33,328 bases of DNA from Defluviitaleaceae bacterium (GTDB taxonomy: Bacteria; Bacillota; Clostridia; Lachnospirales; WRAX01), in the NCBI GenBank assembly GCA_009779935.1, contig WRAX01000026.1, positions 1-33,328 of the forward strand, read 5' to 3'. Position numbers and translations under genes: made by a program. The notes under the pieces were generated by a model. It was not told the DNA's origin, ran no database searches, and was given only the letters and a program-made list of their open reading frames with translations. Shown here in pieces: positions 2,490 through 30,565 of this stretch (the first letter of the stretch is position 1; the number at the start of each line of letters is the position of its first letter).

Positions 2490-2584
2490 GGGAGTAGATA
2501 GGTGCTGGTGTGCCTCCTGGTCTTCAAAACCTGTGTTGGCGTGAGAAACGCCTGGGTGGGTTCGATTCCCACATATTCCCGCCA
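2490..2584 (+). tRNA. selC: tRNA-Sec (selenocysteine, anticodon TCA)
   Basis: An unusually long tRNA. The anticodon TCA (2524-2526) sits in the loop CTTCAAA and reads UGA. A six-pair D stem (AGGTGC 2500-2505 with GTGCCT 2510-2515) encloses a four-base loop, and there is a long variable arm with GGCGT/ACGCC. The T arm is GTGGG-TTCGATT-CCCAC. The acceptor GGGAGTA pairs with TATTCCC, followed by G and an encoded CCA (2582-2584). A six-pair D stem with a long variable arm is the family hallmark. It is charged with Ser and converted to Sec by SelA, and delivered by SelB; none of those genes nor selD is in the window. The UGA-containing peroxiredoxin at 12657 is a direct local client. Confidence 0.96.
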
Positions 2585-12582: not shown

Positions 12583-12611
12583 TTGCAGTTAATTCCGAGT
12601 TGTGTTATAGT
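12583..12611 (+). promoter_or_regulatory. Sigma-A promoter of the selenoprotein peroxiredoxin
   Basis: TTGCAG (12583-12588), 17 bases, then TATAGT (12606-12611). A start about 12618 would give a leader of roughly 40 nt ending in AAGGAGG before the ATG. Confidence 0.65.
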
Positions 12612-12656
12612 ATTAGTAGGAATTAAAAAATAAGACCATCTAAGGAGGAAAATATT

Positions 12657-13223
12657 ATGATAATGGGCAAAAAAGTTGAACCTTTTACCCTGCAAACCTT
12701 TTGGGATTGCGAGTTTAAGGAAATTACCGAAAAAAATTTGGAAGGCAAATGGTCGGTGCTATTTTTCTATCCATCCGATTTCACCTTTGTTTGACCAACC
12801 GAATTAGAAGATCTGGCAGATCTTTATGAAGAATTTCAAAAAATCGATTGCGAAATTTATGCAATCTCCACCGACACACATTTCACCCACAGGGCTTGGT
12901 GGATTAGTAGCAAACCCCTTAAAAAAATAAAATATCCCATGGTGGGCGACCCCGGCCACCAGCTTTGCAACCAATTTGATTTAATTATCCCAAAAGCTGG
13001 CATTTCCCGGCGTGCAACAATCATTATCAACCCCCAAGGGGAAGTGGAGGCTTACGAGATAAGCGGCGGCGGTATGGGTAGAAATGCCGATGAGCTTTTG
13101 CGCAAGGTGCAAGCAGGCCAATTTATGGCAGCAAATCCCGGCGTGGTTTGCCCTGCCAAGTGGAAGCCGGGTGCAGAAACCATAAATGTGCAGGAAAAGT
13201 TAGCGGAAAAAGTCGAGCGATAG
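12657..13223 (+). CDS. AhpC-type peroxiredoxin, selenoprotein (Sec46 by TGA)
   Basis: A thiol (here selenol) peroxidase reducing hydrogen peroxide and organic or nitrogen peroxides. AAGGAGG precedes the ATG. The frame is open to TAG at 13221-13223 (188 residues) except for one TGA at 12792-12794. The flanks are FYPSDFTFV-U-PTELEDLADL, and AhpC proteins have FTFVCPTELE, so the TGA replaces the peroxidatic Cys and must be read as Sec46. The resolving Cys is present in NPGVVCPAKWKPG near the C-terminus, so this is a 2-Cys-type enzyme. A SECIS-like hairpin follows the TGA at the proper distance, and selC is in the same window. The partner reductase AhpF is absent; thioredoxin (30248) is a possible donor. 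Automated annotation would probably call only the part after the TGA (from 12939). Confidence 0.93.
12807..12825 (+). promoter_or_regulatory. SECIS-like hairpin for Sec insertion
   Basis: GAAGATC (12807-12813) pairs with GATCTTT (12819-12825), including one G-T pair, around the loop TGGCA. There are 20 bases between the TGA and the first loop G. Bacterial SECIS elements need a small apical loop with G among the first two bases, about 16-37 bases after the UGA. This one fits. It lies inside the coding sequence as usual in bacteria. Confidence 0.75.
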
Positions 13224-13224
13224 C

Positions 13225-13260
13225 AAAAAAGACCATGGACTAAAAACCCATGGTCTTTTT
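13225..13260. terminator. Bidirectional terminator, prx / lysR
   Basis: An A-run and GACCATGG (ending 13238) pair with CCATGGTC and a T-run (13248-13260). It ends the peroxiredoxin on the plus strand. On the minus strand it covers the last codons of lysR, whose stop codon (13240-13242) lies in the loop. Confidence 0.88.
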
Positions 13261-14151
13261 ATATTCTTTTGTGAGAAAGTTGATGAAAAGATCTACCAAG
13301 TGGGATCTTGTAAAGCTTTTTTTGTGTACATAGTAAAGTTTGCGCTGGGGAAGGGTGCAAGTTAGCTTCAAAGGCACAACCATTTTCTTGTAAATATAAG
13401 TTTCCACGGCAAAATGCGAAACAATAGAAATACCTAGACCATTCACTACTGCGTTGATAATGCTTTGGGTGTTGTCAAAATTAATGCAATTACTTAGAGT
13501 TTCAGGGTCTATATTTTGCTCTTCAAAAAACTGCTCATACTCACTTCTTGTGCCCGACCCTTTTTCCCGCCCCACAAAGCGGTATTCCCGCAACAGTGCC
13601 CCGAGGGAATATTCTAAACTTTCACAAAAATCATCATTACTGGGGGCTATCAAAACCATACGGTCACATAAAAATTGTGTAAATGTGCACTTTGTACCAT
13701 CTACAATGCTTCCTGCAAAACCAATCTCTGCCTGCCCTGTGGCAATTGCCCGTGAAACACCCAAGGTTGTGGCCTGTTTTACATTAAAGGAAACTTCCGG
13801 ATAAACGTTGTTAAATTGGGCGATGGCACGGGGCAGTATGTATTGGGCTGGCACAGATGAGGCTATAATGTCAATTTCACCGCTAAAATCCCCGGACAGG
13901 CCCTTTATTTTCTCTATTGTCTTAGATTTTAATGCTAACAATTCCTTGGCGTTTTCATAGAAAACTTTGCCGGCCATTGTGGGTAATATTTCTTTGGTAG
14001 AACGGTTTATGAGAACAACGCCCATCTCCCGCTCCAAGGAGCTAACATAGGTGCTAACCGAGGGTTGCGACAAATAAATGGCTTCGGCGGCACGAGAAAA
14101 GCTACCCTTTTCAACCACATTAACAAAGGCTTCCAATTGCTTAAAATCCAT
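13240..14151 (-). CDS. LysR-family regulator, resembling selenium-associated LysR
   Basis: A transcription factor of 303 residues from the ATG at 14151; the longer frame lacks a better start. The winged HTH is at residues 1-60 (MDFKQLEAFVNVVEKGSFSR, AAEAIYLSQPSVSTYVSSLE). The effector domain follows with SVPAQYILP, GFAGS and a GREKGSGTR motif, ending in a basic tail. From memory it resembles the LysR subgroup annotated as selenium-metabolism-associated; I cannot run that comparison. The gene is convergent with the selenoprotein peroxiredoxin and shares its terminator. The effector is unknown; CysL-like regulators of sulfur metabolism are the alternative. Confidence 0.88.
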   Translation of the reverse strand: MDFKQLEAFVNVVEKGSFSRAAEAIYLSQPSVSTYVSSLEREMGVVLINRSTKEILPTMAGKVFYENAKELLALKSKTIEKIKGLSGDFSGEIDIIASSVPAQYILPRAIAQFNNVYPEVSFNVKQATTLGVSRAIATGQAEIGFAGSIVDGTKCTFTQFLCDRMVLIAPSNDDFCESLEYSLGALLREYRFVGREKGSGTRSEYEQFFEEQNIDPETLSNCINFDNTQSIINAVVNGLGISIVSHFAVETYIYKKMVVPLKLTCTLPQRKLYYVHKKSFTRSHLVDLFINFLTKEYKKTMGF

Positions 14152-14223
14152 TGCCTGCCCCCCTATCAAATATTTCAATTACATACATTATAATATTTAA
14201 TAATTAAAAAAGCAAGCTGTTTT

Positions 14224-22222: not shown

Positions 22223-22231
22223 ACCAAAAAA

Positions 22232-22330
22232 ATGAAGCAGGTTTTCCGACTTATGCAAACGCCAGCGGGATACGTTGCAAATACGGTAGCAGGACTGCTG
22301 GTGGTTCTCACACCAATTGCCCTGTTTCAT
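22232..22330 (-). promoter_or_regulatory. Cobalamin riboswitch aptamer
   Basis: Read on the minus strand, ATGAA and TTCAT close a P1 stem. Inside are the family's conserved parts: CAGGG, GGTGTGAGAACCACC, GCAGTCCTGCTACCGTA (B12-box-like) and AGTCGGAAAACCTGC near the 3' end. At about 99 nt it is compact relative to the classical 200-nt class. It lies between a strong promoter and a terminator in front of the corrinoid uptake operon, so high cobalamin should switch the operon off. Confidence 0.88.
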
Positions 22331-22352
22331 TTTTAAGTATCATACAAATAAC

Positions 22353-30213: not shown

Positions 30214-30247
30214 ATAAATATAAACTCATAAAGCTTTGGAGGTTGCT

Positions 30248-30565
30248 ATGGTTAATATTCTTAATGAAGCAGATTTTGAAAAAGAAGTTTTACAGTCGGA
30301 TAAACCTGTGGTGGTAGATTTTTACGCCACATGGTGCGGTCCATGCAAAATTTTGGAACCTATTTTTGCAGATGTTGCAGGGGAAATGAGCGACAAGGCG
30401 AAATTTTTCAAAATTGACACCGACGACAACAAAGGGGTAAGCAAGCAATTTGGCGTGCGTAGCATCCCTACCTTGATGGTTTTCAAAAACGGGGAAATGG
30501 TGGACAAGCTAATGGGGGTTTTGCCAAAAGAAGAATTGCAAGCTAAAATCTCATCTGTCATTTAA
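30248..30565 (+). CDS. trxA: Thioredoxin
   Basis: A 105-residue dithiol reductase starting at 30248 after GGAGG. The active site W-C30-G-P-C33 is in FYATWCGPCKILEP, and the cis-Pro is in RSIPTLMVFKNGE. Both Cys are encoded by TGC, so this is not a selenoprotein. It could reduce the peroxiredoxin at 12657, as no AhpF is visible, but this is only a possibility. No thioredoxin reductase is adjacent. Confidence 0.97.
   Translation: MVNILNEADFEKEVLQSDKPVVVDFYATWCGPCKILEPIFADVAGEMSDKAKFFKIDTDDNKGVSKQFGVRSIPTLMVFKNGEMVDKLMGVLPKEELQAKISSVI

Follow-up and report, generated by a model that had tools for sequence, protein, structure and literature searches.

Selenocysteine (Sec)-containing peroxiredoxins have been known since the description of PrxU from Eubacterium acidaminophilum (Sohling 2001, as cited in reviews), and the TxxU Prx family is listed in reviews of selenoproteins (PMC9312934, PMC13188914, PMC1794560). 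Two of these (PMC9312934, PMC13188914) also list other thioredoxin-fold selenoproteins, the Prx-like UxxC, AhpC/TSA UxxS and Prx-SUH CxxU proteins, which resemble the protein described here in belonging to the thioredoxin-fold superfamily and in carrying Sec at the redox site, but have other motifs and fall in other subfamilies. None of the selenoproteins listed in PMC9312934 and PMC13188914 is described as a typical 2-Cys AhpC with Sec and a distal resolving Cys, and our search of the open-licence literature found no Sec-containing 2-Cys AhpC that retains the distal Cys. Sec-peroxiredoxins as such are known; what is, provisionally, new is an AhpC proper that carries Sec and retains the resolving Cys.

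The nearest solved structures to the protein considered here are those of E. coli and Salmonella AhpC (TIGR03137; PDB 4ma9, 1n8j, 4o5r), with which it shares the fold, the length and residues P39, T43, R119, C165 and W169. It differs from them in having Sec for Cys46, an in-frame UGA with a SECIS hairpin, and no adjacent AhpF-like reductase. Like PrxU (NF040737, Eubacterium acidaminophilum type), it has Sec at the peroxidatic position, the FTFVUPTE motif and a downstream bacterial SECIS, whereas the PrxU-type proteins form a separate clade, and those read in this analysis lack the resolving Cys and have V[ML]PSGW or a similar motif instead. The gene lies in a stretch of 33,328 nucleotides from a gut-type clostridial bacterium, referred to as the window. 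We assign a probability of roughly 0.93 to the reading that its product is a functional peroxiredoxin of the AhpC type, with UGA 12792-12794 decoded as Sec under the direction of a hairpin and a catalytic cycle that runs through a selenenylsulfide; here we infer Sec insertion, activity, chemistry and reductant from sequence.

Results

An ahpC frame with a single in-frame UGA

The features of the window that bear on this reading are as follows.

2490-2584 (+): selC, tRNA-Sec with anticodon TCA (ARAGORN; Rfam RF01852, 69.1 bits against a cut-off of 47)
12583-12611 (+): weak promoter-like TTGCAG-17-TATAGT with an extended -10, found by eye and absent from the consensus scan
12642-12648 (+): ribosome-binding site AAGGAGG, good to strong, ahead of the ATG (read from the sequence)
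12657-13223 (+): ahpC reading frame of 188 residues, with Sec46 at an in-frame UGA (TIGR03137, Pfam AhpC-TSA, AlphaFold model)
12792-12794 (+): UGA codon 46, predicted to be read as Sec, at the peroxidatic Cys of AhpC (invariant Cys column; TGA in relatives)
12807-12825 (+): putative bacterial SECIS, in which 12807-12814 pairs with 12818-12825 around the apical loop GGC at 12815-12817 (fold, recoding test, covariation)
13149-13151 (+): codon of the resolving Cys165 in GVVCPAKW (alignment)
13227-13262: probable terminator acting in both directions, stem GACCATGG/CCATGGTC plus A and T tracts (read from the sequence)
13240-14178 (-): selenium metabolism-associated LysR family regulator, convergent to ahpC (NF040786, 289.9 bits against a cut-off of 250)
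30236-30565 (+): thioredoxin (WCGPC), a candidate reductant with a presumed link to AhpC (TIGR01068, 127.7 bits against a cut-off of 96.8)

The frame at 12657-13223 (+) contains one internal stop, the TGA at 12792-12794, which is codon 46 and lies inside FTFV-U-PTELE; the 188-codon reading and coordinates given in the original prediction are exact. That prediction had also placed the TGA at the catalytic Cys of AhpC, and alignment with Cys-AhpCs bears this out, as codon 46 falls in an invariant Cys column. A table-11 ORF finder returns only the 94-aa piece at 12939-13223, as had been foreseen for a standard gene finder, and standard annotation shrinks the gene to a 94-codon fragment or a pseudogene.

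With Cys placed at codon 46, the product matches the TIGR03137 AhpC model (2.7e-75, 252.3 bits), about 20 bits below the cut-off of 272 bits. The shortfall is attributed to divergence, because the second Sec copy of the source genome scores 285.1 and a Cys ortholog from the same genus (G001) scores 268.3. The same version of the protein contains the Pfam domains AhpC-TSA and 1-cysPrx_C. The window protein is ~52% identical to the Salmonella AhpC structure, and its AlphaFold model has a mean pLDDT of 84 and a TM score of 0.91 against Salmonella AhpC. Of the traits of the AhpC-Prx1 group, the PxxxTxxC peroxidatic site with its conserved Arg is present as P39, T43 and R119 with Sec for Cys at 46 (numbering as in Salmonella AhpC), and the C-terminal resolving Cys in VCPxxW is present as C165 of GVVCPAKW, retained as predicted; the alignment shows W169 kept as well.

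Relatives with UGA at codon 46

An ahpC gene with TGA at codon 46 was sought in a family set of 16 genomes, four of which yielded six such genes: the window gene, its ortholog in G002, a paralog linked to aroC in each of G000 (the source genome), G001 and G002, and one gene in G004. The G002 genome is the public MAG Lab288P1bin137, from sample Lab288 of the gut of the termite Labiotermes labralis (PMC7024585); its ortholog belongs to another species, is 76% identical to the window protein and has TGA at the same codon. Beyond the TGA, the window gene and this ortholog differ at 23, 18 and 65 sites in codon positions 1, 2 and 3, respectively, and this concentration in third positions indicates selection at the protein level past the stop. 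A conserved UGA/Cys pair among homologs, with conservation on both sides of the UGA, is looked for in bacterial selenoproteins and is found here.

The second Sec-AhpC gene of the source genome (L059/L105; G000:C3:63974-64501, -) is a neighbor of aroC; it has UGA as codon 46 and retains CPAKW, and its TGA-bearing orthologs in G001 and G002 likewise adjoin aroC. Resolving Cys165 in its CPAKW context is kept in five of the six Sec-AhpCs, both copies of the source genome included. The exception is the G004 gene (L039; G004:C163:12247-12774), in which the resolving Cys is replaced (VLPAEW); this protein may possibly be on the way to becoming a 1-Sec enzyme like those of the PrxU type.

The Sec-decoding machinery

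The original prediction had staked Sec decoding on the presence of selA, selB and selD, and all three were found in the source genome (2.14 Mb, 94% complete), where SelB (363.5 bits), SelA (549.4) and SelD (326.8) score above their curated cut-offs. With selC inside the window itself, the source genome holds the full Sec-decoding set expected for a bacterial selenoprotein. The selA gene is also present in the Cys genomes G001, G005, G012 and G015, so missing Sec machinery does not account for their Cys state.

The selD gene of the source genome (L010) itself has two in-frame TGA codons (G000:C4:62481-62483 and 62499-62501), six codons apart in the context MQIDYFQPFYSGG-U-KSAGG-U-DSKLS. A hairpin, TCAGCA-AGTT-TGCTGA, has its loop 18 nt past the second TGA and 36 nt past the first, spacings at which one SECIS could serve both, and SelD of the source genome is possibly, as judged from its sequence, a double-Sec protein.

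A putative SECIS hairpin 20 nt past the UGA

The published model of the bacterial SECIS has a loop of 3-9 nt with G within loop positions 1-2, a stem of 4-16 bp, a spacing of 16-37 nt and an MFE of ≤ -7.5 kcal/mol (PMC13188914). The hairpin at 12807-12825, GAAGAUCU-GGC-AGAUCUUU, forms 8 pairs 20 nt after the UGA. Its GGC loop, 8-bp stem and 20-nt spacing fit the model, with an energy that is borderline against the limit (MFE -7.5 to -8.2 over the region). Rfam gave no credible match to a known SECIS family here, and the hairpin is judged by the published bSECIS model instead.

Only ~2% of random synonymous recodings are as stable as the real hairpin. A dinucleotide-shuffle test is not significant by itself (z -0.92), and we therefore rely on the synonymous recoding together with covariation. 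In five of the six Sec-AhpC genes, but in none of 22 Cys genes, a hairpin stable by at least 5 kcal/mol has its loop exactly 20 nt past the UGA position; in the G001:C10 Sec gene the stem is broken. Across the four Sec genes with a common register, the helix being defined on the window sequence, both partners have changed in four of the eight stem pairs, and pairing holds in 90.6% of cells in the true register against at most 56% when the register is slid. One compensatory pair in the G002 ortholog comes at the cost of the amino-acid change D55G.

Sec-peroxiredoxins beyond the family

Searches with the exact pattern FVUPTE, which divergent motifs would escape, covered 392 genomes sampled from the order, 391 from the class and 399 from the phylum and found many other Sec-peroxiredoxins, of which 33 from other families could be read. 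These are PrxU-type proteins or members of a second related clade, and the Cys of VCPAKW occurs in 0/33 of them, the usual motif being V[ML]PSGW. The window protein is not a member of PrxU (NF040737), on which it scores 144.8 bits against a cut-off of 270, compared with 328.6 bits for a representative of the PrxU clade. Alignment with AhpC and PrxU-type Sec-peroxiredoxins, suggested with the original prediction, places it within AhpC with the resolving Cys kept; within the sampled genomes the Sec-AhpC form was found in the source family only, in line with its description as uncommon. Among the 33, one long-branched Sec-peroxiredoxin (L069, G136) has APCDW, a C-terminal motif in which a Cys occupies a shifted position and is possibly an alternative resolving Cys. 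Five further pattern matches (L061, L067, L070, L077 and L110) lie outside any Prx gene and were discarded as chance.

Phylogeny, synteny and the reductase gene

The Sec-AhpCs fall inside an AhpC clade of 24 rows, mostly Cys proteins, with support of 100/99. Within it, the pair formed by the window protein and its G002 ortholog has as its sister a Cys protein from G001, a member of the same genus, with 98-99% bootstrap. The G001 gene (G001:C18, L032/L102) occupies the same locus, divergent from miaB with mutS beyond, and is the ortholog of the window gene by synteny as well as by tree; unlike the window gene it has TGC at codon 46, an AhpF-like reductase gene next to it, and no such hairpin. 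The AhpF-like flavoprotein gene that follows it scores 663.8 bits on TIGR03143, just below the cut-off. Across the family and the order, many of the Cys ahpC loci have an AhpF-like neighbor, against 0/6 Sec loci. A full-length AhpF homolog turned up in each of G001, G005 and G012; in G000, G002 and G004 the search for full-length AhpF returned just a short TrxB-type protein, an absence that is provisional as some genomes are incomplete.

A single origin of Sec among the AhpCs is borderline in the AU test when all six rows are included (p 0.058) and is rejected without the long-branched G004 row (five rows, p 0.008). On the strength of these two results, two or more Cys/Sec changes among the AhpCs are likely. 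The Sec form most likely arose within the AhpC clade, from a Cys-AhpC beside an AhpF-like reductase gene. On the simplest reading, Cys with AhpF-like reductase would be the older state, and the line of the window and G002 genes would have undergone both the change from Cys to Sec and the loss of the reductase gene. The fuller proposal is that a lineage-restricted and fairly recent conversion of Cys-AhpC to Sec-AhpC took place two or more times within a single clostridial family and was linked to the disappearance of the dedicated AhpF-like reductase; we consider its chances to be evenly balanced. If true, the conversion would have switched the catalytic chalcogen and the reductant while keeping the resolving Cys, and would have left one genus with a naturally occurring pair of Sec and Cys enzymes at the same syntenic locus.

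Discussion

Proposed mechanism and alternative readings

In the cycle that we propose, SelB and tRNA-Sec would decode UGA 12792-12794 as Sec, directed by the hairpin at 12807-12825. Sec46 would attack and reduce the peroxide, giving a selenenic acid, and would then form a selenenylsulfide with Cys165' of the partner subunit. The selenenylsulfide would be reduced by a thioredoxin/thioredoxin reductase pair, presumably, or by another dithiol system; in the source genome a TrxB gene lies just upstream of selA.

Two readings would dispense with Sec altogether. TGC and TGT each differ from TGA by one base, and the window is a single contig from a draft assembly, so that the gene might be a Cys AhpC misread at one base or a pseudogene with a recent nonsense mutation. 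The TGA recurs, however, at the same codon in four more genes of the family as well as in the 76%-identical ortholog, which comes from a separate assembly; on this ground we reject a sequencing error, and selection acts on the part beyond the TGA; an error or a decayed gene is therefore highly improbable. The frame would equally be open under any code in which TGA is sense, and the UGA could then be read as another amino acid, whether because the code has changed or because leaky readthrough inserts Trp or Cys. We reject an alternative code on the ordinary use of TGA as a stop, which terminates 10 of the 33 ORFs in the window and marks the genetic code as standard, and the complete Sec machinery stands against readthrough with another residue, which leaves this explanation with a similarly negligible chance.

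The remaining alternatives accept Sec and concern the hairpin and the chemistry. The conserved E-D-L-A-D-L codons might produce the hairpin as a by-product, the real Sec-insertion signal being something else: the DLADL codons by themselves favor some pairing, partial pairing is seen in the region in some Cys-AhpC genes (L021 and L041), and the dinucleotide-shuffle test is weak. The contrast between 5/6 Sec and 0/22 Cys genes, together with the changes on both sides that preserve the stem, one of them at the cost of D55G, makes such a by-product improbable. The tendency of the DLADL codons to pair, along with an amino-acid change (D55G) that preserves the stem, suggests a way for a SECIS hairpin to form on codons already in place. 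A 1-Sec selenoenzyme, in which Cys165 is idle and the direct reductant of Sec46 is an external thiol, perhaps as in PrxU-type enzymes, deserves more weight but is still unlikely. Sec could make a resolving Cys less necessary; Cys165 is lost in the G004 protein and in PrxU-type proteins, and all 33 Sec-peroxiredoxins read from other families lack a Cys at that position. Against it, Cys165 and its CPAKW context are conserved in five of six Sec-AhpCs, and it is the retention of Cys165 in both copies of the source genome that supports the 2-Cys-like selenenylsulfide cycle. A Sec-AhpC with its resolving Cys and a Cys ortholog at the same locus offer a direct test of what Sec buys a 2-Cys peroxiredoxin, and their comparison could address rate, resistance to overoxidation and choice of reductant.

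Flanking signals and genes

The "strong own promoter" of the original prediction was not borne out: a sigma-70 consensus scan of the + strand upstream of ahpC reported no promoter-like site, and inspection by eye gave only the weak TTGCAG-17-TATAGT. Downstream, the putative terminator at 13227-13262 sits between the convergent ahpC and LysR genes; its 9-nt loop falls outside the range covered by the scan. Elsewhere in the window, an AdoCbl-II cobalamin riboswitch at 22231-22338 (-; 38.1 bits against 36.5) lies just upstream of, and overlaps, the predicted start of a substrate-binding/ABC transporter cluster.
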